64,000 bases of DNA from Akkermansia muciniphila (GTDB taxonomy: Bacteria > Verrucomicrobiota > Verrucomicrobiia > Verrucomicrobiales > Akkermansiaceae): contig CAMDAD010000008.1 in assembly GCA_945888515.1 (NCBI GenBank), positions 62,001 through 126,000 of the forward strand. The letters are read 5' to 3'. Positions 1,559 through 16,498 of this stretch are shown piece by piece (position 1 is the first letter of the stretch; the number at the start of each line of letters is the position of its first letter). Position numbers and translations under genes: made by a program. The notes under the pieces are model-generated. The model did not search any database. It was not told where the DNA came from and was given only the letters and a program-made list of their open reading frames with translations.

Positions 1559-1583
1559 AATCGAGGCCGCAATGCGGTTGGAT

Positions 1584-2504
1584 TTATGTCAACTGCGAGC
1601 GGAAGTAGGCGAGTGTAGTGGCAAGACCTTCTTCTAACGAAAATTTTGGTCGCCATCCTGCGTTTCGCAATTTTTCTGAGCAAGCACGCGAGTTGCGCAC
1701 ATCGCCCGGTCGCTCTGCGAGGTGCATGATACGCGACTGGCTACCAGCTTCTGCTATGATATTGCTGGCAAGGTCATTGATGGTGATTTGCCCGCCGTAG
1801 CCGGCATTGAAAGTGCCGTGAATGTCATGTTGCGCCGCAAAGACCAGCGCACCGACAATGTCTTTCACGTAGATGAAATCGCGCGTGGCTCCGCCATCTC
1901 CGAAGATCGTGATGTCTTCATTTTTCAATGCTTTTTCGATGAATATGGGCACGGCGGCGGCGTAGGCTCCTCGGGGGTCTTGGCGTGGGCCGAAGACGTT
2001 AAAGAAACGAAGGGAGGTGCTTTGGATCTTGCCTTCACGCCGATAGAGTTCGAGGTAGTATTCGCCGTCGAGTTTCGTGATCGCGTATGGGCTCTTAGGC
2101 TCGGGAATCATGGTTTCGAGCTTGGGCACACTAGGGTTGTCTCCGTAGACCGCGGCAGAAGATGCCAGCACAATTTTTTTCACTCCAGCGGCTGTGGCTG
2201 CCTCTAACACGTTAAGTAGCCCCAGCACATTAATGTCAACGCATTCTGTTGGTTTGCTCATGGACTCAGGCACACTTACGAGTGCGGCCATGTGAAAGAT
2301 GAAGTCGACACCTTGAACGGCTTTCTCCACGAGACAAGGATCAGTGATCGAGCCTTCGATCAGAGTCACTGGGATACCCTCAAGATTTTTTCGATAGCCC
2401 GTGCGGAAGTTATCGAGCACGCGGATCTCCGCAGCGCTGGATTGGAAATGTTCGGCAATGTGTGAGCCGATGAAGCCGCAGCCGCCTGTGATGAGAATTT
2501 TCAT
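1584..2504 (-). CDS. NAD-dependent sugar-nucleotide epimerase/dehydratase
   Basis: This is an extended short-chain dehydrogenase fold of 306 residues. The N-terminus carries the NAD-binding GGCGFIG (residues 7-13). The catalytic set is Ser115 in LASSAAVYG, Tyr140 and Lys144 in SPYAITK. These features fit a UDP-hexose or UDP-HexNAc 4-epimerase (GalE/WbpP-like), although other C4/C5 epimerases share them. Its ATG overlaps the stop of the upstream kinase gene by four bases (2501-2504), and a nucleotidyltransferase precedes both. The set phosphorylates a sugar at C1, activates it with a nucleotide and epimerises it, which strongly suggests a nucleotide-sugar role. Confidence 0.85.
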   Translation of the reverse strand: MKILITGGCGFIGSHIAEHFQSSAAEIRVLDNFRTGYRKNLEGIPVTLIEGSITDPCLVEKAVQGVDFIFHMAALVSVPESMSKPTECVDINVLGLLNVLEAATAAGVKKIVLASSAAVYGDNPSVPKLETMIPEPKSPYAITKLDGEYYLELYRREGKIQSTSLRFFNVFGPRQDPRGAYAAAVPIFIEKALKNEDITIFGDGGATRDFIYVKDIVGALVFAAQHDIHGTFNAGYGGQITINDLASNIIAEAGSQSRIMHLAERPGDVRNSRACSEKLRNAGWRPKFSLEEGLATTLAYFRSQLT

Positions 2505-3616
2505 GAATCAGAAGAGGATGAGAGTTGATGTGCGACCAGATCTTCAAGTTCAGGCATACGGCGCTCCAGTGCTTGAACGAAGGCAAATTGGTTCCGACAG
2601 CGGTCGATATTCTGGCTCGGGCGCTTGATTTTGAAGTATACGTCTCCTTGCAAATAATCGGTAAGGAAACGGATGCCACACTCGAGTGTGAGTAGCTTTC
2701 CCGCGTAGGCGAGTTGGTTGTTTTCCGCTTCGTTAAGAAATGTGGCGGATTGTGTGTAACCTTTGAGCAGTGCCTCAAACATGTCCATTTTCACATCCAT
2801 CGATGAGAGATCCGTTGCTTCCTCGGCGAGTTGGGGCACGGCTGTGCGCACCATATCGCCGAAGTCATACAAAGCCGAGCCCGGCATGGTGGTATCGAGA
2901 TCGATCACACAGACCCCCTCAGCAGTGACGTCATCGAGCAATACATTGTTCAGCTTAGTATCGTTATGGGTCACTCGCTCTGGGATTGCGCCCGAGGCAA
3001 TGAGATCGACGATACGGGAGCAATCGCTTTCATGAGCCCGCACGAAATCGACTTCCTCCGCCACTTCCGCCGCACGTTGGTGAGTGTCCTGTTCCAATGC
3101 TGCCAAAAATGCTTCGTATCGTTTTCTAGTATGATGAAAGTGCGGAATGGTCTCGTGAAGTCGATCGCCTGGCAGACCAGCGGCCAGCTTTTGAAATTCG
3201 CCGAAGGCGCGCGCTGCTTGATAGGCTTGATGGATCGTCTCTAACACATCGTAGCCTCGGGCGCGCTCGATGAAGGGATAGGTACGCCAGACATTTCCCT
3301 CTGCATCAATCGCATACGGCTTGCCATCGCAGGAGGGAACGCAGGTCAGCGTGCGGCGATATGCTTCCGGGTGTCCTTGTTCTAACAGAAGATGCAAGCT
3401 GTGACTTGTGACGCGATCGACATTCTCCATCAAATGGATCGGGTTTTTGAAAACATGGTGATTGATGCGTTGGTGTATGTAACGAATGCGTTGTCCTGCA
3501 GCATCATACCAAGCACAGTAGGTGTCATTGATATGACCAGAGCCGTAGGGGTGAGCATGCACGAAGTCGGCACGCATGTCGAACAATCGCGAGATGGTTT
3601 TCAAATCGTGTTTCAT
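2501..3616 (-). CDS. Aminoglycoside-phosphotransferase-fold sugar kinase, NahK-like
   Basis: The 371-residue protein has the APH/choline-kinase fold. The catalytic loop is THNDTKLNNVLLD with Asp219, and the metal-binding VIDLDT follows with Asp239 and Asp241, before a DFGDMVR segment. HNDTKLNN followed by VIDLDT is characteristic of N-acetylhexosamine 1-kinases (NahK), which phosphorylate GlcNAc or GalNAc at the anomeric carbon. The sugar specificity is inferred. Placement between a sugar nucleotidyltransferase (6 bases upstream) and an epimerase (4-base overlap downstream) supports C1 phosphorylation feeding nucleotide-sugar synthesis. Homoserine or choline kinase activity is the main alternative for this fold. 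Confidence 0.8.
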   Translation of the reverse strand: MKHDLKTISRLFDMRADFVHAHPYGSGHINDTYCAWYDAAGQRIRYIHQRINHHVFKNPIHLMENVDRVTSHSLHLLLEQGHPEAYRRTLTCVPSCDGKPYAIDAEGNVWRTYPFIERARGYDVLETIHQAYQAARAFGEFQKLAAGLPGDRLHETIPHFHHTRKRYEAFLAALEQDTHQRAAEVAEEVDFVRAHESDCSRIVDLIASGAIPERVTHNDTKLNNVLLDDVTAEGVCVIDLDTTMPGSALYDFGDMVRTAVPQLAEEATDLSSMDVKMDMFEALLKGYTQSATFLNEAENNQLAYAGKLLTLECGIRFLTDYLQGDVYFKIKRPSQNIDRCRNQFAFVQALERRMPELEDLVAHQLSSSSDS

Positions 3617-3622
3617 GATTGG

Positions 3623-4540
3623 TTAGATCGAGGAAGGGTATTCGCCGGCGTCAATCAATCTCTGAATGTTAGCGACGACATGCGGCTTGTCTTCAGGGTA
3701 TGTTACCCCGAACCAGGAGCTGTTGGTCGGTAAAACGGCGCAGTCTGCCTTGCGGTTACGGATTAAGGAATCAACCACCGTGGGGATATAGCACTCGGAT
3801 TTTTCCTCATGACCACGTTGTTGCAGAAATTGCGTGAACTCCTCTTCGATTCTTGAGAGAAAGGACGCTTGAAACACCCAAAAGTTCATGGAGACCAGGG
3901 AATCGGTAGGCACCTCATGACGTTCTCCATTGAGGTAATCGCCGTAAATGATACCGCCTTCTTCGCGCTGAATTTTCACTACTTCCTCGACCGAGGCGAG
4001 GTAGCCGCAAGCGTCGCTGCGGCAAATCCCGCGATTGACATCGCCGTGATCGGACAAGGTTTTCAGCAGTTCATAGCCCACCATCGCATAGTGCTCGAGG
4101 CCGTCATCAGTCAATGTGTGTTGAAGAAAATCCACCGCGCGCTGGTAGGAATCACTTCCGTAAAAGTCATCCGCATTTATCACGGCAAACGGTCCCTTAA
4201 CCAACTGGCGCGCGGAGCGGATGGCATGCGTGGTGCCCCACGGCTTAGTACGGCCCTCGGGCACAGTAAAGCCCATAGGGAGATCATCGAGCGATTGATA
4301 GGCATATTCGACATCGATTTTACCAGCGAAACGCGAACCTACGCTGGCTTGAAAAGACTCCGCAAAATCCTTGCGAATAATGAAAATCACACGCTTGAAA
4401 CCGGCTCGTATGGCATCGAATACCGAGTAGTCGAGAACCGTTTCGCCATTCGGCCCCATCGGGTCCATTTGCTTCAGCCCCCCGTAACGGGAGCCCATAC
4501 CGGCTGCTAAAATCAAGAGAGTAGGTGAGGACATACGCAT
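3623..4540 (-). CDS. Sugar-1-phosphate nucleotidyltransferase
   Basis: The protein starts MRMSSPTLLILAAGMGSRYG, with the LAAGxGxR nucleotide-binding signature of NTP_transferase enzymes, then KQMDPMGPNGETVLDY. NADDFYGSD near residue 120 supplies the metal-binding Asp. The length, 305 residues, fits a single-domain pyrophosphorylase without an added acyltransferase. Its likely job is to convert a hexose or HexNAc 1-phosphate made by the adjacent NahK-like kinase into a nucleotide sugar, which the next gene epimerises. It is the first gene of the minus-strand group 4540-191. A second possible start ATG lies at 4534. Confidence 0.85.
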   Translation of the reverse strand: MRMSSPTLLILAAGMGSRYGGLKQMDPMGPNGETVLDYSVFDAIRAGFKRVIFIIRKDFAESFQASVGSRFAGKIDVEYAYQSLDDLPMGFTVPEGRTKPWGTTHAIRSARQLVKGPFAVINADDFYGSDSYQRAVDFLQHTLTDDGLEHYAMVGYELLKTLSDHGDVNRGICRSDACGYLASVEEVVKIQREEGGIIYGDYLNGERHEVPTDSLVSMNFWVFQASFLSRIEEEFTQFLQQRGHEEKSECYIPTVVDSLIRNRKADCAVLPTNSSWFGVTYPEDKPHVVANIQRLIDAGEYPSSI

Positions 4541-4895
4541 GGTGTGCGCGCTGTTCTAGGCATGAATGGACTCACTTGGCAAGAATAGATCGAAAAAATC
4601 TGTTCTAAAGAAAAGAACAGATAATTTGGTGCATGCGATGCTTCGACAATTCGATGCGTTGTGCGGCGAGTCGGGAGAATTGACGCCAGAATCTTGCGAG
4701 TAGGGGATATGATTTTATTGGGCAGCGACAAAAGAATGAATTGTGCCTGCGACCATCTATGAGTAAAACCATTGCAGAAATGCAATACATCTCCCTTTGC
4801 CACACTGCAATCGCTTTCGTTTTCTCGTGCCATGCGTCATGCGAGGAAAAGACGGCACATGAATCGATGGGTCATTGCTTGGTCATCATCCGCGC
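4541..4895. other. Divergent intergenic region with inverted repeat
   Basis: This gap separates the divergently transcribed nucleotidyltransferase (minus) and the SbmA-like gene (plus). Short frames inside it look unlike protein. The only clear structure is a perfect 9-base inverted repeat at 4598-4622, listed separately. Promoters for both directions must lie here, but no convincing -35/-10 pair stands out. Confidence 0.6.
4598..4622 (-). promoter_or_regulatory. Perfect 9+9 inverted repeat followed by T-tract on minus strand
   Basis: Arms ATCTGTTCT (4598-4606) and AGAACAGAT (4614-4622) match perfectly around a 7-base A-rich spacer. Read on the minus strand, the second arm runs into TTTTTT about 58 bases upstream of the nucleotidyltransferase start. 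It could therefore fold as an attenuator-like terminator in that leader. The alternative is an operator for a dimeric repressor controlling the divergent sugar genes. Confidence 0.5.
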
Positions 4896-5939
4896 ATGAA
4901 ACAAGAGAATTCGATTTCGATTCGGCAGACAATTCGTCGGCTGTTTGGTGCGATAGGAAACTTTTTGGTTTCCACTGCGGGTGTTCGCGCGCGCTGGATG
5001 CTAATGGGCCTGTTTGCGCTAATGATCGCGATCAATGTGATGAATGTCGCTAACAGCTATGTGGGGCGCTATTTCATGTCGGCGATCGAGGCGCGTGATC
5101 GTGAGGAATTCGTACATTACGCATGGCTCTATGTAGCCGTTTTTGGCGCTAGCACTTTTTTTGCTGTATGGTTTCGATTTGCTGAAGAGCGTCTCGGTAT
5201 GGTCTGGCGCGAGTGGTTGACGCGGCGTATCACCGAGATCTATGTCACTCGCCAATTGTATCTACCTCGCTGCGGACAGGAGGTGCTGAGCAATCCTGAT
5301 CAGCGGATGACGGAGGACGTGCGTCAGTTGACGACCACCACGCTATCGTTTTTTTTGATGATGATCAATGCCACCCTGACCGTCATTTCTTTTTCGGGAG
5401 TCTTGTGGCAGATTAGTCCGAAATTGTTCGGGGTTTGCGTGCTTTATGCAGTCATTGGTTCACTCGTAACAATCTGGTTGGGGCGCCCGCTCATTCGACT
5501 GAACTATGAACATTCCGATTATGAAGCAAATTTGCGTCTGGAACTCATCCGCATCCGCGAACATGCGGAGCAGGATGCTGTATCGATAAGCAAAGAAGTG
5601 CTGCGTGATCGCATCGCCGCGCGCATCGATGAGTTGATGGTGAACTTGCGGCGCATCATCGAAGTCAATCGCAACCTAGGTTTTTTCAGTACGGGCTACA
5701 ATTATTTGATTCAACTCATTCCTGTTCTGTTAGTGGCTCCTCTTTTTATCGATGGCGATGTGGAGTTCGGCGTGATTGGACAATCAGCGATGGCGTTTGC
5801 GATGCTGCTAGGCGCTTTTTCTCTTATTGTGAATCAGTTTCAAGCCATTTCTTCCTACGCATCCGTGGTCGCGCGTCTATCGGAATTCACCGATCATGCC
5901 GAGCGTTGCGGGGAAATCGAGGGCCAAGCTCCGAACTAA
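4896..5939 (+). CDS. SbmA/BacA- or YddA-like transporter membrane domain without ATPase
   Basis: The 347-residue protein has several membrane helices (around residues 27-50, 75-95, 155-175, 185-205 and 265-310). It carries the family hallmarks RWREWLTRR-like VWREWLTRRI, NPDQRMTEDVRQLT, and EANLRLELIRIREHAE. These belong to the ABC_membrane_2/SbmA_BacA family of inner-membrane peptide or cofactor importers and exporters. The YddA-type members continue into a Walker-containing ATPase domain. Here the protein ends just after the membrane part, and no Walker A or LSGGQ follows. It may be SbmA-like and proton driven, or it may borrow an ATPase. ATG at 4896 is preferred over an upstream TTG at 4875. 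The GH94 gene follows within 20 bases. Confidence 0.75.
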   Translation: MKQENSISIRQTIRRLFGAIGNFLVSTAGVRARWMLMGLFALMIAINVMNVANSYVGRYFMSAIEARDREEFVHYAWLYVAVFGASTFFAVWFRFAEERLGMVWREWLTRRITEIYVTRQLYLPRCGQEVLSNPDQRMTEDVRQLTTTTLSFFLMMINATLTVISFSGVLWQISPKLFGVCVLYAVIGSLVTIWLGRPLIRLNYEHSDYEANLRLELIRIREHAEQDAVSISKEVLRDRIAARIDELMVNLRRIIEVNRNLGFFSTGYNYLIQLIPVLLVAPLFIDGDVEFGVIGQSAMAFAMLLGAFSLIVNQFQAISSYASVVARLSEFTDHAERCGEIEGQAPN

Positions 5940-5955
5940 TCTCCCGCATCCGCAC

Positions 5956-8900
5956 ATGAACGCAAAACACCATTCCATCCAAAAGTTTCCGCGTGAGATG
6001 ACTCATGCTGCTGGGGTTCGCATCTTGCTAAATGACAATGGATCGGTCCGACGCATGGATTGTGAGGATATAATGATCAACCTGTTTCCGGCCCACGCGG
6101 TGGAAGCGGGACCCTGTAATGTATATCTGCGAGTGTTTTGTGAGCATGGCCTAGAGTTGATTCCTTTGTTGGGACCATGCAGCCCCTTGCATTGGGAAAT
6201 TTCTGAGCATTCTTCTGAAGGGCAGGGACGGTGGGAGTTTTTGTCGATCAAGATGAGATTGCAACTCGCGGAGTCTAACAGGTCATGGTTCTGGCATATT
6301 CATCTGCATAATGAGAGCTCCAAACCTTACCGTTGTGATCTGATTCATACACAAGATGTAGGCCTCGCGCACTACGGTGCGATCAGACTCAACGAGTATT
6401 ACGTCAGCCAATACATCGATCATCTCGCGCTCGATCATAGTGAACACGGCGTGTGCGTAGCGTCGAGACAGAACCAACCGATGGGCGGTCGCTATCCGTC
6501 GTTGTTTGTGGGTTCGCTGGGTCGCGCGGTGTCCTTTGCGACTGATGCACTTTCGGTCTACGGCAAAGGGCACCCATGTCATCGTCAAGCCAGCGGGCTT
6601 TACGAGGGTCTTGCAGGAATCAAATGCCAACATGAGCACGCGATGGTGGCTCTGCAAGAAGAGGAGTTTTTGTTGAAACCCGGGCAGGTCGCGCAGCGCG
6701 GATTTTTTGCGCATCTGCTCATCGATCATCCAGAGGCTCTATCTGCCGAGGATCTACAGCGAATGGAAATCGCACTTGCTCTGCCAGAATCGATTTGTTC
6801 ACCTTGGTCTGCACATCCGGACGCTGTGAAGAATCAAGAGGGAAAATTTTCTCACACCAGTGAATTGGAAGTTCACGAAATCAGCGATGAGTTGTTAGAA
6901 TATTTTTTCGGTAAGGAGCACTTGCTGCAAGAGCGAGTGGAAGGGAGATTGTTATCGTTTTTTACACCTCGCCATGAGCATGTGGTGCTGCGCGCGAAAG
7001 AAGCCATGGTGCTTCGTCCTCACGGTCATATCATGCGGAGTGGCTCATCCTTGGTTCCGGAGGAGGTATCGATGACGAGCACCGCATGGATGGCGGGTAT
7101 CTTTCATTCGATGGTCACGCAGGGCCACGTTAGCATCAATCGCTTTCTCTCCACCTGCCACAGTTATCTTGGTATCTTCCGCAGCCACGGACAAAGAATT
7201 TTTGTAGAGATTGATGACGTGTGGCATCTTCTTGCTGTGCCATCGGCTTTCTCCATGGATTCCCAAAAATGTCGATGGATCTATGCTTTTGGCGGCGGAG
7301 TGATCGAGGTGACATCGTCTGCGGATGAAAAATCACATTGCTTGCGCTTGCAGGCTCACGTTGTGATGGGTCCTGCGAGGAAGTTTTTCTTTAGTCATCA
7401 TGTGGCGCTGAATGGTGATGATGGAATGGTTTGCGGCCCTGTGCCGTTTGTTAGTTATGACAACAAAGAAGTGGTGGTGCGCGCGATTCCTGCGAGTGAT
7501 GTGGGGCGTCGATTTCCCGATGGCAGCTTTGTGATTGCCGTCGATGACGAATCCTTATGGGAAACTGTGGGCGGTGACGAGATGCTTTGGGCAGACGGAC
7601 AGTCGCGCGGTGAGCCATTTTTGTGCATAAAAACCCACGCAACGAAGCGTATCGACTTAACCATAACTGGGCGATTGCTTCCAGAAATTGATGCATCCAA
7701 AAAAAACGCACATGATTTTATCGAGCCCCAGTGGCTGCTATCTGTGCAGGCAACCAATCGTTATGCTGCTGACATCGATGCCGTGACGCAAATCATACCA
7801 TGGCTTGTCAACAACGCGATGATTCATTATCTGTCGCCGCGCGGCTTGGAGCAATACTCGGGCGGTGGATGGGGCACGCGAGATGTTTGCCAAGGTCCCA
7901 TGGAGTTTCTCTTGTCTACGGGACATTTTGCTGTTGCGCGCGATTTGTTGTGTCGCGTTTTTTGTCAACAGAATGCCGATGGTGATTGGCCGCAGTGGTT
8001 TATGTTTTTTGAGCGAGAGCGTGACATTCGCCCAAGTGATTCACATGGCGATATCGTTTATTGGCCGGTGTTGGCGCTCGCGCAGTATCTATGCGCTTCA
8101 GGGGATACATCGATTTTGGAGGAAAAATTGCCATATTTTCATCCCGAAAGACACGCGGCGACGGTATGTGTCAGTATCGCGCAACATGTAGAAAAGGCAT
8201 TGGAATTGATACGCAGTCGCGTGATTGCGGGAACAGTATTAGCGGCATATGGACATGGTGATTGGAATGATTCGTTACAGCCCGCGAAGGCCGAAATGCG
8301 GGATCGTCTCTGCAGTGCTTGGACGGTGACTCTGAACTATCAAACTCTTCGCACTTTGGCCGATGCCTACAAGCGCTCGGGAAGGTCATCGGAAGCAGAG
8401 GATATGAACGCAGAGGCTGGGAAAATACTCACGGAGTTTCAACAACTTTTGTTGATCGATGGTGTCGTCACGGGCTTGCTTTATTTTCACCCTGACGGGC
8501 AACACGAAGCGATGCTGCATCCGAGTGATCGGACTACGGGCCTCCGCTACAGCCTCTTGCCAATGATTCATGGGATCATCAATGACATGTTTACTCCTGA
8601 CCAGGCAGCGCATCATCTGCGTCTGATTCGCGAGCATTTGTTAGGACCCGATGGTGCACGTTTGTTTGATCGCCCAATGAAATATCAGGGTGGGATTTCA
8701 CATCATTTCCAGCGTGCAGAGACTGCGAGTTTCTTCGGTCGAGAAATCGGAGTGATGTATACACATGCTCATATTCGCTATGCGGAGGCATTGGCTCGCT
8801 ACGGCGATGCAAGTGGCTTGTGGTTGGCCCTGCGGCAAATCAATCCCATCGGCTTGCAGTCGATTGTGAAATCGGCAGCGTTACGACAATCGAATTGTTA

Positions 8901-9336
8901 CTACTCCAGTTCCGATGCCGCTTTTTCTGATCGCTATGATGCTTACGATCACTACGATCGAGCGCTTAGTGGCGAGGTGTCACTGGAGGGTGGCTGGCGC
9001 GTTTATTCGAGTGGCTCGGGAATTGCTGTCCGTCTCATCGTGCAGTGTTTTCTTGGGATCCGTATGGAAGCGGATGGCCTTATCATCGATCCCGTGATTG
9101 ATCCCGCTTTAACAGGGATGAAGGCATGGGTCGACGTCGGCGGGCGTCGCTGGCATGTGGAGTATACTGTCGGTAAGCGCGGCTGTGGTCCCGTCTCGGC
9201 CTCAACAAACGGCGTAATACTTCAAGGGGAGCGATTGCCAAATCCCTATCGAACGGGTGGCATCCGGATCTCCCATGATCAATGGCAGAAAATATCCTGT
9301 GGTCAGGTCGATTCGCTGCGAATTGTGTTAGAGTGA
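5956..9336 (+). CDS. GH94-type glycoside phosphorylase, long form
   Basis: This protein of 1,126 residues has the GH94 layout. The N-terminal half is a beta-sandwich region (NEYYVSQYIDHLALDH near residue 145). It is followed by an (alpha/alpha)6 barrel with GGWGTRDVCQGP, where Asp643 sits in the position of the GH94 general acid. HGDWNDSL and EGGWRVYSSGSG come next. GH94 enzymes split beta-glucosidic or beta-HexNAc bonds with phosphate, releasing a sugar 1-phosphate. The length above 1,000 residues resembles the 1,2-beta-oligoglucan phosphorylase type rather than the roughly 800-residue cellobiose or chitobiose enzymes; this is inference. There is no signal peptide, so it probably acts in the cytoplasm. 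ATG 5956 is chosen because the earlier start lies inside the preceding gene. Confidence 0.75.
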   Translation: MNAKHHSIQKFPREMTHAAGVRILLNDNGSVRRMDCEDIMINLFPAHAVEAGPCNVYLRVFCEHGLELIPLLGPCSPLHWEISEHSSEGQGRWEFLSIKMRLQLAESNRSWFWHIHLHNESSKPYRCDLIHTQDVGLAHYGAIRLNEYYVSQYIDHLALDHSEHGVCVASRQNQPMGGRYPSLFVGSLGRAVSFATDALSVYGKGHPCHRQASGLYEGLAGIKCQHEHAMVALQEEEFLLKPGQVAQRGFFAHLLIDHPEALSAEDLQRMEIALALPESICSPWSAHPDAVKNQEGKFSHTSELEVHEISDELLEYFFGKEHLLQERVEGRLLSFFTPRHEHVVLRAKEAMVLRPHGHIMRSGSSLVPEEVSMTSTAWMAGIFHSMVTQGHVSINRFLSTCHSYLGIFRSHGQRIFVEIDDVWHLLAVPSAFSMDSQKCRWIYAFGGGVIEVTSSADEKSHCLRLQAHVVMGPARKFFFSHHVALNGDDGMVCGPVPFVSYDNKEVVVRAIPASDVGRRFPDGSFVIAVDDESLWETVGGDEMLWADGQSRGEPFLCIKTHATKRIDLTITGRLLPEIDASKKNAHDFIEPQWLLSVQATNRYAADIDAVTQIIPWLVNNAMIHYLSPRGLEQYSGGGWGTRDVCQGPMEFLLSTGHFAVARDLLCRVFCQQNADGDWPQWFMFFERERDIRPSDSHGDIVYWPVLALAQYLCASGDTSILEEKLPYFHPERHAATVCVSIAQHVEKALELIRSRVIAGTVLAAYGHGDWNDSLQPAKAEMRDRLCSAWTVTLNYQTLRTLADAYKRSGRSSEAEDMNAEAGKILTEFQQLLLIDGVVTGLLYFHPDGQHEAMLHPSDRTTGLRYSLLPMIHGIINDMFTPDQAAHHLRLIREHLLGPDGARLFDRPMKYQGGISHHFQRAETASFFGREIGVMYTHAHIRYAEALARYGDASGLWLALRQINPIGLQSIVKSAALRQSNCYYSSSDAAFSDRYDAYDHYDRALSGEVSLEGGWRVYSSGSGIAVRLIVQCFLGIRMEADGLIIDPVIDPALTGMKAWVDVGGRRWHVEYTVGKRGCGPVSASTNGVILQGERLPNPYRTGGIRISHDQWQKISCGQVDSLRIVLE

Positions 9337-12300
9337 TTTTTCGAAAGCACCGCGCAATCGCAAAAGGGCCGCAAACGGCAGTTGACGGATTGTTATGGCA
9401 TCGGCACTTGGCAAGTTGATTTCACCAAGGCCTTGATGAGTTTCGACGGATGAAAGGCATGCTCCCTCGGGAAGAGGTGGTCTCAGCACCAGACCGCCCG
9501 ACGGGATAATCAGGCTGCCACCCACCTCGACGGTCATCTCCTGATCTGCATTGACGTTCAGGTGCAAATCAAGCGACCCATGCGTAGTTGGCAGATGACG
9601 CACGGCAAAGCCCTCGCCGGTAGCGATCCATTTCCAGGGGAGACCAGCGGCGAGGACCAACGATTGCGTGGCGTCGCGTTCGGAGGCGACCATCGAGGTC
9701 AGCGCGATGATATACTCCGCAGCGATCCAGGTGTGCGGTATATCCCCCAGATGTCCTGGCGAACGTGGATCGCGCCACGTGATTTCCGGCCACTGGTTCC
9801 ATTCGAGAGGGCGACGATCGGATAGGAAAAATTCCAATAACTCTTGAGCTGTATCCCTGTTTCCTAAGCGTACGAAAGCGCCTATAATGCGGATCTCATA
9901 AGCGGTATAGTTGTTCCATGGCATCTCGCCGCGATGCTTGCGGTGGAATGCATCGAGGTAGCTCGCAAGCATGGCTGCAAGAGGTCCAGCGGGCAACGCA
10001 TCCGCGAAGTCGAGCATGGCGATGGCATTGGAAGTCGCTGTTGGATCGAAGTCCGCCCACTCAACAGAACCGGGAATGTAATCGAGATTTTTGTCCGCGA
10101 TGACCCGATCCAGCGAGAGCAGCACGTCGGACTCGAACGCGTTTGCTTCCTCACGCCACAGCGAGGCCTCCGTTTCATATCCCAGCGTTTCGTAGATATC
10201 AGCGCATGCCTCTAGGCCCCGTATGCCCCAGAAATCATCCCAGTAGGAGTGAACCGGATGCGCAAGATATCCTTCGTGGCTCGCGGATTCAGGCAGAAGA
10301 CCGTAGCGCGGATCTTTTTCCTCTTTGCGGTAATCATCCGTCATACGTAGCCCTCGGAGCGTTATCAGATACGCAGCGGCCTTGCGCGCGTGTGGCAGGT
10401 GGCTTTCCAAAAATCCCGCATCTCTCACGTGCCGATAGACTTCGCGAATTCCCCAGAGGAACTGCCCGTGGCTGTCGTGCTCAACGAGCCAGTCGATCCC
10501 ATCGCGGTCAACCACGCATGGGACGAAGCCGTCGTCGCGCTGAAAAGAGGAATACCACTCGATGAACAAACGCAGTGGGTGGGGAAGGCCTGCCTTTGCC
10601 AGAGCCGATCCCATGATGACGCAGTCACGCACCCAAGAGCGAGTGTAACGGCGTGGGCCTGGCTGCATCGCGGGACCATCGCGATTGATCAGTATATGAC
10701 CGGCGCAGGTGCGCCAGCAGTCGAAGGCATTCGCAGCGCACGATGGAACATTCCACTCTACCATACCAAGAGTTTTTTTCCACTGGTCATACATATCCTT
10801 ACGTGTAGTAAAAAATGATGAATGTTTCTGTGGGGCGTATGGCATTGAGACAGTGACTTCACACTCTTTGACACCAGCAGGAATGTCCCAAAGAAAGACA
10901 CCTGAGGCTCTCTCGCTCGGATCATTGACTGGGCTGGAGGGAGGAATTTTTCCTTCGGCCAGATAGGCTAGCACGCCGCCCTCCTCAAAGCTCGCAGCAC
11001 CGCAGTGAGACGGGCGGGGGTGGCCGTGGATGATTCTGCCATCGATGTGCATTGCGGAGAGTTCCTGCCTGATGCTGTGCACGGAACAAACGCCACCAAG
11101 ATTGCGAAACGCTTGCCAAGGGGGATTGACTTGAAATGGACGGATGGCAATGGCGAGGCTTTTGACCGATTCCGGAATGAGCATCTGCAAATGATAGCGC
11201 ACGTGCAAGGTGAGATCATCACCCAGTCCATCGACCCATGGCATGATATCGAGGCAGAGATCCTCATGGCTCCATGTGACTACGGGCAATGGCATGCCAT
11301 CGGCTGCCAGCCCTACTTTTATCGACATGTCTGCCCAAGTGAACAAGCCTGACGTGCTGAGAATCATAGGCTCGAGGGAAAAGGCCCCTTCATCGACTTC
11401 TACCATACCCTCTTCATTGATGAGCGCACGCCGTTTTCCCTCGGGACTTCCGACGGGTGTCCAATACGATTGCTCTCGATGCCAGTAGCGTGGATGCCAG
11501 CCCCTCGGGTAATCGCGGGCGACCGAGTGAATGAATTCGTTCGGTGTTTGTGAAAAGGCATCCGGTTGCCACTGGATGAAGCGCAGCGCGGCATGGGAAG
11601 CGCTTTCAAAAACCAACCGCAGGTAGCGAGTTTCTGCCGCTGGTGTGGGCACATGACTGAGCAATCCCCGCGCCTGTTTTGCTTCAAACAGGGGTTGCCA
11701 TGTCTTTGTATCAGCGGAAATTTCCAACCGATAAGCCCGTGGGGGAAGACCGGCTGGCCAGTGAATGGTGAGGCCACCAAATCGTTGATTGCGACCGAAA
11801 TCGATACTCCACCAAGGCTGTGTGTCGTCAGGCAATGCGCGCCATTCACCCAGATCATCAGAGAGCACCTCCCCAGCGAGATGATGTGGACTTTCGGAGG
11901 AACTGCTGACCGCGGCGGGAGAGCGCATCGTTTGATCTATCAAATAGGCGTCTGCGACGTCGATGTGGCCTTTGCCCCCGGGACCAGCTGCGATGACGAA
12001 TTCGATCGCCTCGATTTCTGAAGCCGCACCGCCTCCATTGGGCCCCCAAGCGAAGAGCATGTCGCGCTCGTTCATCACGACAGCTTGCCAGTTTTTGGGC
12101 AAAGTGAAGTCTTGCCGCGTGTAGCGCCAGACATTGAATCCACCGGTTGAGGCTACTTTGCATTCGAAATGATTGGGTGGTCCTTCACCGCGCAACTGGT
12201 AGCCCCAAGCGAAAGTCGTAGGCAATGTCATGGGAAAAATCCTTCGCATCACTACGAAGCCGCCGCTGTCGTGGAAGTCATAGTGCAAACGCACTGCCGC

Positions 12301-12411
12301 CTTGCCCTCAGGGCCTGTGATTTTTTCCACGTTGCCTGTGGCTTGACCAGAGGCAAAAACTTGCCATGCGCTGGCATCATCAAACAATGATTCAAACGGC
12401 ATTTGGGTCAT
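9328..12411 (-). CDS. Discoidin (F5/8C) plus (alpha/alpha)6 glycosidase-like protein
   Basis: This large protein of 1,027 residues begins with a beta-rich carbohydrate-binding-like region (1-165). A discoidin/F5-8 type C domain follows (about 175-285; WWSIDFGRNQRFGGLTIHWP). A middle region precedes a C-terminal (alpha/alpha)6 barrel (about 560-920; RRYTRSWVRDCVIMGSALAK, then WNNYTAYEIR). The RDxxxxGxALxxxG pattern recalls glycogen-debranching/GH15-like barrels. Acidic residues are present, but the catalytic pair was not identified. No signal peptide is visible. It converges on the GH94 gene with a 9-base overlap of the 3' ends and diverges from the phosphohexomutase, so it belongs to the glycan locus. 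Its substrate is unknown. Confidence 0.7.
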   Translation of the reverse strand: MTQMPFESLFDDASAWQVFASGQATGNVEKITGPEGKAAVRLHYDFHDSGGFVVMRRIFPMTLPTTFAWGYQLRGEGPPNHFECKVASTGGFNVWRYTRQDFTLPKNWQAVVMNERDMLFAWGPNGGGAASEIEAIEFVIAAGPGGKGHIDVADAYLIDQTMRSPAAVSSSSESPHHLAGEVLSDDLGEWRALPDDTQPWWSIDFGRNQRFGGLTIHWPAGLPPRAYRLEISADTKTWQPLFEAKQARGLLSHVPTPAAETRYLRLVFESASHAALRFIQWQPDAFSQTPNEFIHSVARDYPRGWHPRYWHREQSYWTPVGSPEGKRRALINEEGMVEVDEGAFSLEPMILSTSGLFTWADMSIKVGLAADGMPLPVVTWSHEDLCLDIMPWVDGLGDDLTLHVRYHLQMLIPESVKSLAIAIRPFQVNPPWQAFRNLGGVCSVHSIRQELSAMHIDGRIIHGHPRPSHCGAASFEEGGVLAYLAEGKIPPSSPVNDPSERASGVFLWDIPAGVKECEVTVSMPYAPQKHSSFFTTRKDMYDQWKKTLGMVEWNVPSCAANAFDCWRTCAGHILINRDGPAMQPGPRRYTRSWVRDCVIMGSALAKAGLPHPLRLFIEWYSSFQRDDGFVPCVVDRDGIDWLVEHDSHGQFLWGIREVYRHVRDAGFLESHLPHARKAAAYLITLRGLRMTDDYRKEEKDPRYGLLPESASHEGYLAHPVHSYWDDFWGIRGLEACADIYETLGYETEASLWREEANAFESDVLLSLDRVIADKNLDYIPGSVEWADFDPTATSNAIAMLDFADALPAGPLAAMLASYLDAFHRKHRGEMPWNNYTAYEIRIIGAFVRLGNRDTAQELLEFFLSDRRPLEWNQWPEITWRDPRSPGHLGDIPHTWIAAEYIIALTSMVASERDATQSLVLAAGLPWKWIATGEGFAVRHLPTTHGSLDLHLNVNADQEMTVEVGGSLIIPSGGLVLRPPLPEGACLSSVETHQGLGEINLPSADAITIRQLPFAALLRLRGAFEKSL

Positions 12412-12537
12412 GATGGATGCTAGAAAGATCGAGCGATTGTGTCAATGAACATGTCCGCTGTGCCTGTCGAAATATCCTAGATCCGATGACAAAATTGCAT
12501 TGCCAATCATGTGATCGACTCCCTATGCTGCGGGCAG

Positions 12538-14475
12538 ATGAACTCATTGTCCACTGCACTGGATCAGGCTGTCGAAACGGAAAAATTGCTGTCTAGCGCC
12601 AGACAAAACATCCATGCGCTGTTGTCAGGCGCTGCGGATGATTTTGCGGAGCGTGTGGTGATGGAGTTGGTTGAGGGTCAAGAATGGAACGAGCTGAACG
12701 ACCGATTCTTCAAAAAACTGGCCTTCGGAACGGGCGGGTTGCGAGGTCGCACGATCGGTCGGGTCGTAACTTCCTGGGAGCAGGGCAAAGGCGGACCAAA
12801 TGAGAGGCCGGAATTCCCCTGTGTTGGAACGGCAACGATGAATTTTTTCAATGTTAGCCGCGCCGTGCGTGGGTTAGTGGCCTATGCTCAGAAGCACGTC
12901 GGAGCCACGCGCAAGGCTCGTCTGGTTTTTGCGCATGATACTCGCCATTTTTCGCGAGATTTCGCTGAGTTTTGTGCTCAGGTCTGCACGGATCTCGGAG
13001 CCGATGCCTATCTTTTTGAAAGTGCCCGTAGCACGCCGCAGTTGTCCTTTGCCATTCGCGAACTGCGTGCGGACGCCGGTGTGGTTCTGACTGCCAGTCA
13101 CAACCCAGCGCACGACAACGGTTTCAAAGCCTACTTTAACGATGGCGGTCAGATCGTGGATCCGCATGCCACAGCGATCATCGGCTTGGTCAATGCTCTG
13201 GAGACAGAAACCTACCAAAAAGTTGCGCCTGAACAACGAGGGATGTTGACGACGCTCGATGCGGCAATGGATCGTCGCTACATGGATCGGCTCCGCTCGC
13301 TGTTGATGCGTCCCGAACTGCTGCAGAGCGGAACTGCCAAAGTCATTTTCACCAACCTCCACGGCACTGGGGGGAAAATCGTCGTGCCAATGATGCGGGA
13401 GCTCGGCTTCGATGTTGCCACGGTAGCCGCACAAGATACGGAAGATGGTCGTTTTCCTACGGTTGCGTCGCCGAATCCCGAAAACGCGCCCGCCTTGAAA
13501 ATGGCAATCGATTTAGCCGAAACGGAAGGCGCGGAAATTGTGATCGGTACTGATCCTGACAGCGATCGCATGGGGATCGCTGCGCGGGACGCTTCAGGCT
13601 CTATGGTATTGCTCACGGGCAATCAAATCGGCTCGCTAATGGCTTGGTATCGAGTAAAGACGGCGTTTGATCTGGGCTGGATCACCGATGCCACACGCAG
13701 CCGCGCGGTATTGATCAAGACTTTTGTCACTACCGAATTGCAACGTGCGATCGCGGATCACTTCGGGATCCGCGTGGTGGATACGCTCACTGGTTTCAAA
13801 TACATTGCCGAGAAACTACGCAAGTATGAGAATACCATTCCTGCTGCCAAAATCACCGAGCTCAGTGCGGATGGCTATCGCTCTCTGTCCGAAGATCAAT
13901 CTCGCCGCTTGCGTCTGGAGTTTTCGCGTTTCTTTGTTTTCGGTGGTGAGGAAAGTTACGGCTACTTGGGTTGCGACTTTGTTCGTGACAAGGACGCCAA
14001 TGGCGCGGCGGTGATGATGGCAGAAGTCGCGGCATACGCGAAAAGTGTCGGACTCACGCTGCCTGATTTGTTGGATGAAATTTATTCCCAATTCGGCTAC
14101 TATCTTGAAGTAGGAAAATCACTGGTCATGGAAGGAGCCGATGGTGCTGCCAAAATTGCCGCTCTGGCCGCTTCCTACGCCGCTCACCCGCCGAGCGAAT
14201 GCGATGGCTCCGCCGTGGTGCGTGTGCGTGATTTCGCATCGCAGGATTTGTTCGATGACGAGGGCGACGAGTTGCCCAAAGAAAAAATGCTTTTCGTCGA
14301 TCTCGCCGATGGCCGACGCTTCGCGGTTCGTCCCTCAGGCACAGAACCGAAGATTAAGTTTTACCTTTTCGGTTGCGCAGGAACCGATGTCACCCTGACT
14401 CGCGCCAAGCAGATGGTGTCATCTTCTTTGGAGTCCCTTTGGAAATGGATCGAAAAAGACGCAGCACAACGGTAA
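12538..14475 (+). CDS. Phosphoglucomutase/phosphomannomutase
   Basis: The 645-residue alpha-D-phosphohexomutase moves phosphate between C1 and C6 of hexoses. The phosphoserine loop TASHNPAHDNG has Ser187, the metal loop is GTDPDSDRMG, the sugar-binding loop is FGGEESYGY, and the phosphate-binding end RPSGTEPKIKFY closes domain 4. The length fits the PGM2/PgcA-like long branch. ATG 12538 is preferred over a GTG at 12511. It would convert the sugar 1-phosphate released by the nearby GH94 enzyme into a sugar 6-phosphate, linking the locus to glycolysis. Confidence 0.9.
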   Translation: MNSLSTALDQAVETEKLLSSARQNIHALLSGAADDFAERVVMELVEGQEWNELNDRFFKKLAFGTGGLRGRTIGRVVTSWEQGKGGPNERPEFPCVGTATMNFFNVSRAVRGLVAYAQKHVGATRKARLVFAHDTRHFSRDFAEFCAQVCTDLGADAYLFESARSTPQLSFAIRELRADAGVVLTASHNPAHDNGFKAYFNDGGQIVDPHATAIIGLVNALETETYQKVAPEQRGMLTTLDAAMDRRYMDRLRSLLMRPELLQSGTAKVIFTNLHGTGGKIVVPMMRELGFDVATVAAQDTEDGRFPTVASPNPENAPALKMAIDLAETEGAEIVIGTDPDSDRMGIAARDASGSMVLLTGNQIGSLMAWYRVKTAFDLGWITDATRSRAVLIKTFVTTELQRAIADHFGIRVVDTLTGFKYIAEKLRKYENTIPAAKITELSADGYRSLSEDQSRRLRLEFSRFFVFGGEESYGYLGCDFVRDKDANGAAVMMAEVAAYAKSVGLTLPDLLDEIYSQFGYYLEVGKSLVMEGADGAAKIAALAASYAAHPPSECDGSAVVRVRDFASQDLFDDEGDELPKEKMLFVDLADGRRFAVRPSGTEPKIKFYLFGCAGTDVTLTRAKQMVSSSLESLWKWIEKDAAQR

Positions 14476-14483
14476 ATGAGCTT

Positions 14484-15746
14484 CTACGTTTTGATGGCGT
14501 CAAATGATCGGTGAACGCAGTCGGCATCTGCGCAGATCAACGGGCTTGCCGGAGCGTCTTTGAGGCGCTGGGCGATACGATACACTGCTTCGGCGTGATG
14601 TTGCGGGTGAAAGGAGTCGATTAGGGACAGCGGCAGTGGTTGGTGATCGTTCGATAGCGCGGCAGCAATCCAGCTACATGCCTCGTAAAAGTTTTCTCCT
14701 TGGATAATCACTGCGGAAGAGGGATCGCGCCTTACTCGTTTGATGAGTTCGGTTTTGGTGCCTAGTGACTGCCGCGAAAATTCTAACGAATCAATCAGCA
14801 GAGAATCGTAGAGATAAGGATGTGCGATGCCGTATCGTGCGAGATTTTCTTGTATGTGGGGAATCGCGCGACCGATCAGAGGGCGTTGCCATGCAATGGA
14901 TTCGAGAAATGCCATGCCGAATCCTTCCTGCGTGGAAGTGCTGAGAAGGTGAGTACTCTGGGAAATGTGCTCTTCGAGTGGCCAGCCTGAGTTTTCTGCG
15001 ATCGCCCAAGTAATCGGCAGATCGAGTTGTTCTGCGATTTGCTGCCAGTGTCGGTATTCTTCCTGATAGCGTGATGACGCAGGACTGAGAGTGGTGGCAA
15101 AAGTCGCGTTGTCGGGAGAGAGCGAGGCTAACAGCAGCATTTCTCCCATGTTTTTCCGAGTGATAGCGCGGACTGGATAGAGAAGCTGTGGATGTGTTGA
15201 GGCAGAGGCGATGAGTGGCTGGGGCGTGATCGGATTTCCGAGAATCGTTATGTTATCCTGGGGTAATCCCGCTTTGCACAGAATCTCACGGTCGCGCAGC
15301 GTCAGTACGATGTAGTGTATGCGTGCTCCGCAGGGAAACCACGGTGGTCCTTGCCGCAGACTTTGCAAATTCTTTTCCCTAGCGTCCTCCGCGAAATCAT
15401 GAATGTGAAAAAGTAAACGTTCGTTCTTGCTCGCCAATTCATGAACAAGTGACGACATAGCGGGATGGCAGCCAAGAGTGGGGTTATGAATGTGCCAAAT
15501 ATGAGGCCGTGGCAAATTCCGAACGACCGCATCAATCGATTCTTTGAAATCGTCAACGCTCGCGACATGTTGCAGCGCGTAGTCGAGCTCAGGAACCATC
15601 TGGTGTTGCCCCCCAATAGATGATGCGGGACCTGCGCTCAGCGTTACAAAAGGAATGCCCCGCTTAAGAAATTCCGTGGTTTGCTGTTGCAGCACCCGTG
15701 TCACACCACCGGGACGCAGGTGATAATGGACGAACAAATGAGTCAT
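14484..15746 (-). CDS. GT4-like glycosyltransferase
   Basis: The protein of 420 residues begins MTHLFVHYHLRPGGVTRVL, a typical GT-B glycosyltransferase N-terminus with the glycine-rich acceptor-domain loop. The C-terminal half contains STSTQEGFGMAFLESIAWQ, the E-G-F-G-x-x-x-x-E signature of the nucleotide-sugar-binding domain in GT4 enzymes. It should transfer a sugar from a nucleotide sugar to a glycan or lipid at the cytoplasmic face. It ends only 9 bases from the convergent phosphohexomutase. Donor and acceptor are unknown. The stretch between this gene and clpP (15747-15859) holds nothing recognisable. Confidence 0.75.
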   Translation of the reverse strand: MTHLFVHYHLRPGGVTRVLQQQTTEFLKRGIPFVTLSAGPASSIGGQHQMVPELDYALQHVASVDDFKESIDAVVRNLPRPHIWHIHNPTLGCHPAMSSLVHELASKNERLLFHIHDFAEDAREKNLQSLRQGPPWFPCGARIHYIVLTLRDREILCKAGLPQDNITILGNPITPQPLIASASTHPQLLYPVRAITRKNMGEMLLLASLSPDNATFATTLSPASSRYQEEYRHWQQIAEQLDLPITWAIAENSGWPLEEHISQSTHLLSTSTQEGFGMAFLESIAWQRPLIGRAIPHIQENLARYGIAHPYLYDSLLIDSLEFSRQSLGTKTELIKRVRRDPSSAVIIQGENFYEACSWIAAALSNDHQPLPLSLIDSFHPQHHAEAVYRIAQRLKDAPASPLICADADCVHRSFDAIKT

Positions 15747-15859
15747 GGCGGCGCTGGGAATGTCGACATCGAAAGCTGTGCCCTGAACGATGCATCATCA
15801 GCTAGCCCCGCGTTCAACGGGATGACACTCGCCCTCCAGAGCCCGCAGTGTGAAGACAA

Positions 15860-16498
15860 TTACGCCTTCACATCCGGCAGCTCACGTCGGGTCAGAACCT
15901 TATCGACGAGTCCGTAGGCCATCGATTCCTCAGCAGACATGTAATTGTCGCGATCCGAGTCGTGCTCAATCTGCTCCACGGTCTTCCCGGTGTGATGGGC
16001 GAGAATTCCGTTGAGGCGTTTTTTCAAATTGAACATGAAACCGATGGTGCGTTCCACGTCCGATGCCGTTCCGCTGGCTCCGCCCGAGACCTGATGGATC
16101 ATCACGTGCGAGTTCGGTAAGCAGAAGCGCTTGCCCTTGGTTCCTGCGGTGAGAAGAACCGAACCCATGGACGCGCAGATGCCGATGCAGTAAGTGTTCA
16201 CGTCGCAGGTCATGAATTGCATGGTATCATAGATCGCGAGGCCGGCCGTGACAGATCCGCCGGGGGAGTTAATGTAAATGTGGATGTCTTTCTTAGGGTC
16301 CTGCATTTGCAAAAACAACAACTGTGCGATGACAGAGTTTGCGACAAAGTCATCGATGCCAGTCCCGATGAAAATAATACGGTCCTTTAGCAGGCGCGAG
16401 TAGATATCAAAAGAGCGTTCGCCCCGGCCGTCTTGCTCGACGACGACAGGCACGTAGTAGCTATTTTTGGGGGCGATGGACGTAGGGAATTGATTCAT
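15860..16498 (-). CDS. clpP: ATP-dependent Clp protease proteolytic subunit
   Basis: This is ClpP, 212 residues, the barrel-shaped serine protease that works with ClpX or ClpA. The triad is readable: Ser110 in CASMGSVLL, His135 in SHVMIHQ, and Asp184 in [26 protein letters not shown] is also conserved. One small oddity is GICASMG, where most family members have GQAASMG. The ATG overlaps the trigger factor stop by four bases (16495-16498), so clpP is co-translated with tig. This is the usual tig-clpP pairing; clpX is not next to it here. Confidence 0.97.

Follow-up and report, generated by a model that had tools for sequence, protein, structure and literature searches.

A candidate salvage module for β-1,2-glucans in Akkermansia muciniphila: a 1,2-β-oligoglucan phosphorylase, a GH15-like partner and an ATPase-less transporter

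Many Gram-negative bacteria carry osmoregulated periplasmic glucans (OPGs) as major glycans of the envelope. Our literature searches found no pathway that returns them to the cytosol. Intracellular use of β-1,2-oligoglucans is described for the sophoro-oligosaccharide clusters of Listeria innocua and Streptomyces griseus, which comprise a phosphorylase or glucanase, a β-glucosidase and an importer (PMC12369401). This importer is an ABC transporter with a sugar-binding protein, and the available part of that account mentions neither opgGH nor a protein like DISC, described below. In cyclic-glucan synthases, a phosphorylase half is assigned to length control during synthesis in the accessible portion of the source (PMC10901819). 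Another group of interest is the membrane domain family that includes Rv1819c/BacA, YddA and SbmA. According to the accessible parts of two reports, characterised members carry peptides or cobalamin, the mycobacterial BacA in both directions (PMC10960864, PMC13316013), and a step from an ABC pump to an ATP-free carrier has been proposed for SbmA (PMC13316013).

The window, that is, the whole 64-kb stretch of DNA analysed here, carries a locus that resembles the Listeria and Streptomyces clusters in its predicted intracellular use of β-1,2-oligoglucans. It differs from loci of known 1,2-β-oligoglucan phosphorylases (SOGPs) in the company of the phosphorylase, which consists of a discoidin protein, DISC, and an ATPase-less transporter. 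An earlier note had reported the GH94 and discoidin genes as a tail-to-tail pair. Both genes are real open reading frames (5896-9336, plus strand; 9328-12411, minus strand), and they converge with their 3′ ends overlapping by 9 bases at 9328-9336, stop codons counted in. The GH94 frame encodes 1146 residues from its first ATG and 1126 from a start at 5956; the orthologous ORF in relative G009 is likewise 1126 residues long. The transporter at 4875-5939, the OPG link and the GH15-like nature of DISC had been passed over in the earlier note.

Table 1. Features of the locus, in window coordinates
Feature	Position	Strand	Basis
Transporter, BacA/YddA-type, membrane domain only, 354 aa	4875-5939	+	PF06472 and SbmA_BacA profiles
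GH94 SOGP gene	5956-9336	+	Frame open from 5896
Codon of Asp663 (Asp643 from the 5956 start), -1/+2 sugar ligand	7882-7884	+	Equivalent to LpSOGP Asp631
Codon of the predicted catalytic acid, Asp792 (Asp772 when counted from 5956), in the GDWND stretch	8269-8271	+	Equivalent to LpSOGP Asp760
DISC, discoidin and GH15-like barrel protein, 1027 aa	9328-12411	-	ORF, Pfam, AlphaFold2
DISC residues 169-273, F5/8 type C (CBM32-like) module	11593-11907	-	Pfam, E 1.4e-11
DISC residues 545-925, predicted GH15-like (α/α)6 barrel	9637-10779	-	AlphaFold2, pLDDT 91.3; dextran dextrinase, Z 34.6
DISC R595-D596 of the W-[IV]-R-D motif, proposed to bind sugar at subsite -1	10624-10629	-	Invariant, 64/64; codons checked
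DISC Glu713, proposed general acid, SHEGY	10273-10275	-	Invariant, 64/64; weak alignment
DISC Glu876, proposed general base, NQWPEI	9784-9786	-	Invariant, 64/64; position from spacing only
Phosphohexomutase-family protein	12511-14475	+	Four PGM/PMM domains

The phosphorylase and the upstream transporter

By sequence, the GH94 protein is a clear SOGP, as the earlier note had supposed. It contains four Pfam domains that all pass their cut-offs (SOGP_N, SOGP_2nd, GH94 catalytic and SOGP_4th), in the order common to LpSOGP (5h3z) and LiSOGP (Lin1839), and it matches LpSOGP over its full length (E 4e-188) with about one-third identity, judged by eye. The positions checked were the catalytic Asp and the -1, +1, +2 and phosphate ligands of LpSOGP. 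Fifteen of these 17 are identical in the window protein, and the other two, LpSOGP G623 and A626, are replaced by the small residues Ser and Gly. The same 15 positions are identical in all 17 SOGP homologues compared, a set that excludes the truncated copies L064 and L108 and in which one contig (L053, the same as G053) was entered twice. Asp643 does lie in the GGWGTRD motif, as first described; its candidacy as the catalytic acid is ruled out by alignment with LpSOGP Asp631, a sugar contact at -1 and +2, and the acid is predicted to be Asp772.

Neither the GH94 protein nor DISC has a hydrophobic N-terminal stretch in a Kyte-Doolittle scan, which is not a signal-peptide predictor and in which the open frames of several relatives scored as high as the secreted control, perhaps because their starts were called too far upstream. 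The scan agrees with the earlier claim that signal peptides are absent, and intracellular action is probable.

The protein encoded at 4875-5939 matches PF06472 (E 6e-37) and SbmA_BacA (E 8e-11). Its best solved relative is Rv1819c/BacA (E 1e-22), SbmA giving E 4e-4. No Walker A or ATPase region was found, the nucleotide-binding domain (NBD) being missing altogether. That is, the protein lacks the NBD with Walker A and B of an ABC transporter, and its 354 residues form a membrane domain without NBD, as in SbmA-like peptide transporters (SLiPTs). Loss of the NBD is shared with SbmA, but the six-residue glutamate ladder of SbmA is not: E193 and E276 are kept, whereas positions 203, 269, 287 and 378 are L, N, R and S. 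These residues rule out an SbmA-type proton ladder. Relatives of the transporter form a series from intact YddA-like proteins through those retaining a dead NBD, unlike the window protein, to those that have lost it.

DISC, a protein with a GH15-like barrel

The earlier description of DISC as a discoidin (α/α)6 protein is borne out by Pfam and AlphaFold2. Its F5/8C module has a profile match to the carbohydrate-binding modules of glucanase/chitosanase (E 6e-12), and the whole model (pLDDT 92.6) contains an (α/α)6-type barrel. The modelled barrel is closest in structure to dextran dextrinase (Z 34.6, 2.7 Å, 338 residues), glucodextranase and isomaltose glucohydrolase. For the GH15 enzymes, including glucoamylase, Z runs from 34.6 to 30.3 with 14-18% identity in the structural alignments, compared with 28.5 for a GH116 β-glucosidase; in Foldseek alone, a GH100 invertase is about level with dextran dextrinase. 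We describe the barrel as GH15-like, as the model suggests. DISC resembles GH15 enzymes in its fold, its W-x-R-D motif and a possible acid Glu, and differs from them in its own N-terminal modules, in having β-1,2-glucan enzymes as neighbours and in giving no match to the GH15 Pfam model (PF00723) up to E 0.01. TIGR01577 scored 30.1 bits (cut-off 820.7), and hhalign of DISC with the GH15 proteins of relatives gave a weak match to a poor template, on which we do not rely. DISC was also considered as an endo-β-1,2-glucanase of the GH144 clan (GH144/162/189/192-194). This reading seems less likely: DISC has no match to PF10091, which covers GH144, and no clan member is among the fold matches listed. 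DISC is probably an unclassified cytosolic hydrolase. No Pfam model covers its barrel, and at least 535 relatives were confirmed in one scan.

Candidate catalytic residues were sought in an alignment of the window protein with 63 of 76 DISC frames, after manual removal of 13 that were cut short, ran too long or nearly duplicated another; a second alignment kept the window protein and 47 of those 63, without the closest relatives. E713, E876 and R595-D596 are invariant (64/64). The W-[IV]-R-D motif around R595-D596 aligned with that of the GH15 enzymes, and E713 aligns with the Glu of SIWEDMY in dextran dextrinase, a weak match (E 0.056; 0.92 for the stretch itself). GH15 enzymes use glutamates in catalysis, among them E178 and E335 of isomaltose glucohydrolase, mutants of which appear as entry titles. 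We propose Glu713 as the acid and Glu876 as the base. The structure prediction suggested earlier as a way to find an acidic pair thus yielded a GH15-like barrel, and the candidate pair comes from the weak alignment and from spacing. D725 or D726, at first considered as general acid from spacing, was superseded by E713; both Asp residues are also nearly invariant.

Gene company across genomes and loci

Two overlapping sets were compared, as follows. The first consists of 57 related genomes, nine with full-length DISC and 48 others; partial or distant matches in G015, G046 and G052 were not counted as DISC. The second comprises 80 DISC loci from named genomes, the closest among the matches listed; five of them are the same contigs as members of the first set. 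As controls, GH94 was counted over whole genomes, and 14 control genomes were included in the family searches.

A GH94 match occurs in all nine full-length-DISC genomes and in five of the 48 others. OpgG is likewise present in 9/9 versus 21/48 (p 0.002), a weaker link because opgG is so common in relatives without DISC. The closest association is that of the BacA/YddA-type transporter with a dead or missing ATPase, exactly one of which is found in each DISC genome and none in the 48 others. Adjacency is not strict: DISC and the transporter gene lie on different contigs in G003 and G053, and in G021 the transporter gene adjoins SOGP, with DISC on another contig.

Among the 80 closest listed loci, a GH94 enzyme is near DISC in 40, and at one locus the two are fused. 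These GH94 neighbours are either SOGPs or, in 26 of the 80, resemble the phosphorylase half of cyclic-glucan synthase; those scanned are free-standing, unlike the synthase, with no GT84 synthase domain seen. Since DISC and a GH94 gene are kept together in other phyla, a functional pairing is supported, although the tail-to-tail arrangement is not general, a converging SOGP within 1.2 kb of DISC occurring in 5/80 listed loci. The transporter is near DISC in 49 of the 80, three being weak matches (L091, L092, L100); four truncated loci of the 49 were left out of the transporter comparisons, and later also L059 and L064, whose frames are doubtful. Other neighbours in the same 80 are GH1 (11 loci, 10 strong), opgG with an opgH-like gene (5) and GH144 endoglucanase genes (4). 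Of 42 loci with at least 5 kb on each side of DISC, six have no GH94, transporter or GH144.

Mutual exclusion of DISC and GH144 was hinted at by the first set, in which GH144 occurs in 4/57 relatives, none with DISC (p 1.0). It was rejected because four listed loci have both, so that DISC need not replace GH144. Families K12 and K13 beside DISC proved to be antisense open frames. The phosphohexomutase-family neighbour, put forward earlier as the consumer of the sugar 1-phosphate, could consume glucose 1-phosphate. In G000, G009 and G001 it lies next to the GH94 and DISC genes; in G005 it does not. The only strong matches among the 80 listed loci, L033 and L041, are on contigs already represented by G009 and G001, so this neighbour is confined to close relatives and not general.

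A proposed salvage route and its alternatives

On balance, and with modest confidence, we favour a role of the module in the intracellular salvage of β-1,2-glucans, most likely OPGs, whether the cell's own or scavenged; opgG-opgH is present in the same genome. The ATPase-less BacA/YddA-type protein would admit hydrophilic oligosaccharide to the cytosol, pulled by its consumption. SOGP, judging by its very strong homology, would then phosphorolyse the β-1,2 links down to sophorose, releasing α-glucose 1-phosphate without ATP cost. DISC, acting as an exo-acting inverting hydrolase through E713, E876 and R595-D596, would take off a glucosyl link that SOGP cannot cut; the chain may be held by its N-terminal β-sandwich modules. 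Judged by fold, the leading candidate for this link is the one α-1,6 link of Group 3 OPGs; β-1,6 branches and sophorose itself are alternatives. Since an exo enzyme would be unable to open a ring, an endo-acting enzyme would have to cut Group 3 glucans beforehand.

The substrate of DISC is where a rival reading has most to offer. Short GH3 proteins are often NagZ-like, and the sole GH3 of this genome is a short single-domain protein; no GH1 match was found in the genome, and for GH116 there is just a weak, partial one. It follows that something else must deal with sophorose. DISC may thus cut β-glucosidic bonds itself, either in sophorose and short β-1,2-oligoglucans, in the role usually filled by a GH3 or GH1 enzyme, or at the β-1,6 branches that Group 1 OPGs carry in the accessible part of one report (PMC10514313), with the rest of the module unchanged. 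Barrels of this type also occur in β-glucosidases, such as the GH116 enzyme above, and in β-phosphorylases. However, the nearest structural relatives of the DISC barrel are, going by their entry names, presumably enzymes of α-glucosides, and a GH1 β-glucosidase is already near DISC in ten loci. We regard this reading as a real possibility, though not the probable one.

The ten GH1 clusters also point to breakdown, against a module that makes or trims glucan, with the phosphorylase reversed or used for length control and the transporter as exporter. Phosphorylases are reversible, the phosphorylase half of cyclic-glucan synthase offers a precedent for length control (PMC10901819), and opgGH lies near DISC in five loci. 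Yet the apparent acid/base pair of DISC is that of a hydrolase, and the free-standing GH94 proteins scanned have no synthase domain; we consider a biosynthetic role quite improbable. It is unlikely, too, that the transporter is unrelated to glucans, carrying peptides or cobalamin-type cargo and lying beside glycan genes by chance. The cargoes of its characterised relatives would suit such a role, and so would the bidirectional mycobacterial BacA (PMC10960864, PMC13316013), but the ATPase-dead form tracks full-length DISC exactly and recurs near it in the listed loci. Five paralogues with intact Walker A served as a control. They follow DISC less closely, four being in DISC genomes and the fifth in G015; the frames of two of them, L117 and L118, are interrupted.

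Returning to the salvage of OPGs, it is tempting to go further and suppose that DISC founds a new GH15-related family for the lone α-1,6 link of α-1,6-cyclised β-1,2-glucans, and that with GH94 and an ATP-free BacA-type facilitator, pulled by phosphorolysis, it forms an undescribed OPG-recycling pathway. The facilitator would then be the second ABC transporter, independently of the first, to have become an ATP-free carrier. This fuller proposal is speculative, and we hold it as rather doubtful. Titles and abstract openings in the open-access literature gave no description of DISC, the DISC-GH94 pair or OPG recycling. If the module does recycle OPGs, DISC would provide a substrate for a large hydrolase family that has no Pfam model over its barrel. 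The transporter series offers present-day intermediates of the transition proposed for SbmA, in which an ABC pump becomes independent of ATP. If the module salvages OPGs, the genes for a direct test are named here, with Allochromatium, Thiocystis and Solimonas as cultured hosts.

The convergent pair and its phosphorylase

Both open frames lie where the earlier note had placed them. They run towards each other, and the 9 bases that they share include both stop codons. Pfam places four SOGP/GH94 domains, all in order, in the phosphorylase (SOGP), and the characterised reference enzyme LpSOGP (5h3z) matches along its length (E 4.2e-188). In parts of its text, the LpSOGP structure paper (PMC5309861) names 17 positions, which we mapped onto a set of 17 homologues that contains the window protein; L053 and G053 are the same contig, so 16 of the 17 are distinct. 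Fifteen positions are identical in 17/17. The other two are Gly623 (Ser in 14, Thr in 2, Asn in 1) and Ala626 (Gly in 15, Ala in 2), which in LpSOGP leave room for subsite +2, according to the same passages (PMC5309861). Given the 15 identical positions, SOGP specificity is the natural prediction, and the earlier assignment to the 1,2-beta-oligoglucan phosphorylase type appears sound. Asp792 (Asp772 in the frame that starts at 5956) is the predicted catalytic acid; Asp643, the residue singled out by the earlier note, corresponds instead to LpSOGP Asp631, a sugar ligand. The window SOGP is a further member of an already known enzyme kind.

Next to the pair lies a phosphohexomutase whose first PGM domain begins only near residue 106; either its N-terminal extension is unusual or its start was called over-long. 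On the other side, an APH-type kinase adjoins a nucleotidyltransferase and an NAD-dependent epimerase, and the kinase and nucleotidyltransferase keep their positions in G009, a related genome. This group presumably resembles the AmgK-MurU sugar-recycling pair.

Features of the window and of other loci
Source	Feature	Position	Strand	Length
Window	APH-type kinase adjoining nucleotidyltransferase and NAD-dependent epimerase	2501-3616; 3623-4540; 1584-2504	-
Window	transporter (BacA/YddA-type)	4875-5939	+	354 aa
Window	SOGP	5956-9336	+	1126 aa (1146 aa from ATG at 5896)
Window	DISC	9328-12411	-	1027 aa
Window	phosphohexomutase	12511-14475	+	654 aa
L031 (G022)	PF10091 (GH144-type) gene, SOGP gene directly behind	7369-8733; 8742-12128
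L097	DISC fused to synthase-type GH94	9686-16282	+	2198 aa
L010	protein remotely resembling DISC barrel	1318-3672	-	784 aa
L011	protein remotely resembling DISC barrel	670-3150	+	at least 827 aa

Predicted fold and putative catalytic residues of DISC

In the partner protein, DISC, the only features that Pfam and NCBIfam recognise are the discoidin module and, weakly, part of a GH15-type amylase model (30.1 bits versus a cut-off of 820.7). AlphaFold2 with 64 sequences gave a pLDDT of 92.6 and a pTM of 0.92 (91.3 and 0.91 for the barrel alone). In VIA-align, the barrel is closest to dextran dextrinase (Z 34.6, 338 residues, 2.7 Å, 18% identity), followed by glucodextranase (31.4), isomaltose glucohydrolase (30.7) and bacterial glucoamylase (30.3); GH65, MmpH, GH125 and GH116 enzymes come next, with Z from 28.8 down to 28.5. 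The Foldseek order is less clear: a GH100 invertase ranks first and dextran dextrinase second, both with E near 1e-6. A fold common to DISC and other families shows no function.

A profile of the barrel matched MmpH at E 4.5e-4, dextran dextrinase at 0.056 and isomaltose glucohydrolase at 0.06 or higher, and aligned the W-[IV]-R-D motif of DISC with theirs. Glu713 (SHEGY) aligns with the Glu in the SIWEDMY stretch of dextran dextrinase; since this stretch by itself reaches no better than 0.92, Glu713 is a proposal for the general acid. Glu876, placed by spacing, is proposed as the general base. R595, D596, E713 and E876 are invariant in 64/64 sequences, as are several other acidic residues. 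We infer that DISC is an exo-acting inverting hydrolase.

The L010 and L011 proteins, for which a Pfam scan gave no match, may represent additional families that share this fold and lack annotation.

Distribution of the module and a degenerate transporter

Nine of the 57 related genomes have a DISC match that spans most of the protein; three more matches are partial or distant. A GH94 match (E 0.001 or better) occurs in 9/9 DISC genomes versus 5/48 others (Fisher 2e-7). The DISC-SOGP pair is tail-to-tail in G000, G009, G005 and G001. G053 has the two genes head-to-tail, and in G021 they lie on separate contigs. Matches to the SOGP query occur in 8/57 genomes, the G046 match lying inside a 2848-aa synthase-like frame. 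In G027, G051 and G003, DISC adjoins another kind of GH94 protein. In G027 and G003 this protein combines supersandwich domains with a GH94 catalytic domain; the G051 contig ends within the gene. Phosphorolysis of beta-1,2-glucans is known for both kinds of companion enzyme, an indication that they and DISC share a substrate. G022, without DISC, has a PF10091-SOGP pair, a beta-1,2-glucan pair of the more familiar sort.

The scan of named genomes confirmed at least 535 DISC relatives, of which the best 80 were kept; the counts given here therefore describe the closest ones. Five of these loci sit on contigs that also belong to the 57-genome set. A GH94 enzyme lies in 40/80 (14 SOGP, 26 synthase-type), a transporter match in 49 (44 at 300 bits or more), both together in 29 and GH144 in 4. 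Many loci are on short contigs; among the 42 in which DISC is flanked by 5 kb or more in each direction, GH94 is present in 28, the transporter in 28, one or both of them in 35, and none of GH94, transporter or GH144 in six. L097 carries DISC and a synthase-type GH94 as a single fused open frame. Among the matches listed, DISC spreads to Chromatiaceae, Solimonas, Phycisphaerales and MAGs labelled Deltaproteobacteria, Binatia and Rokubacteria; the nearest, own-genome records possibly excluded, are Verrucomicrobiota MAGs, mostly labelled Akkermansiaceae (closest 78% identical). The module is also present in MAG records titled Akkermansia muciniphila (L041, L042, L050, L097), a label that looks doubtful because both the isolate names and the relatives point to MAGs of environmental origin.

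The nearest relative of the membrane protein upstream of SOGP is Rv1819c/BacA. In most relatives the transporter is full length with a degenerate ATPase domain; this domain is absent in the window's clade (G000, G009, G005, G001, L034). Of 42 proteins with the region, one keeps the Walker B Glu; 23 have Arg at this position, 15 His, two Gly and one Lys. The Walker A pattern is kept in L038, L091 and L100, the latter two being weak matches that look like other YddA-like proteins. PF06472 gave 14 matches in 10 of the 57 relatives. Walker A is intact in five of them (G003, G005, G015, G027, G051) but not in the other nine, of which there is exactly one per DISC genome and none elsewhere. Two YddA-like paralogues, G003:C152 (L117) and G005:C60 (L118), have an intact Walker A stretch and interrupted reading frames. 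The six-residue glutamate ladder of SbmA is not present in the transporter. Passages of PMC10960864 describe BacA as transporting cobalamin in both directions and as enclosing a large cavity of hydrophilic character, so the ATPase-less relative may plausibly act as a facilitator.

A possible link to osmoregulated periplasmic glucans

OpgG (PF04349, GH186) occurs in 9/9 DISC genomes versus 21/48 others (p 0.002). In the window's own genome (3.36 Mb, 54 contigs, 97.5% complete), opgG is the direct neighbour of opgH on contig 6. Five of the best 80 of at least 535 loci carry opgG and an opgH-like gene (L065, L070, L071, L088, L094); Pfam confirms opgG in three, and NCBIfam confirms opgH in L065.

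Passages of PMC10514313 describe beta-1,6 branches in Group 1 osmoregulated periplasmic glucans (OPGs) and one alpha-1,6 link within the beta-1,2 ring in Group 3, whose type is made by Ralstonia, Xanthomonas and Cereibacter according to part of PMC11842490. A phosphorylase reading beta-1,2 links would need a helper for either group, and the modelled GH15-type fold of DISC would favour the alpha-1,6 link as substrate. The ring would have to be opened first; GH186 proteins are candidate openers because EcOpgD is a beta-1,2-glucanase (PMC10514313, in part). The same passages suggest beta-glucosidase breakdown of unbranched E. coli glucans as possible, so other OPG fates have already been considered. 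A GH1 beta-glucosidase lies in 11 of the same 80 loci (10 strong; that of L086, the sole one scanned, exceeds the NCBIfam cut-off). A search of the own genome found no GH1, one short GH3 and one weak GH116 match; DISC itself is therefore a candidate for sophorose cleavage there.

The DISC-GH94-transporter association is a conserved, widespread module and the real find; it includes a predicted hydrolase without classification and an ATPase-dead carrier beside a GH94 enzyme of known kind.
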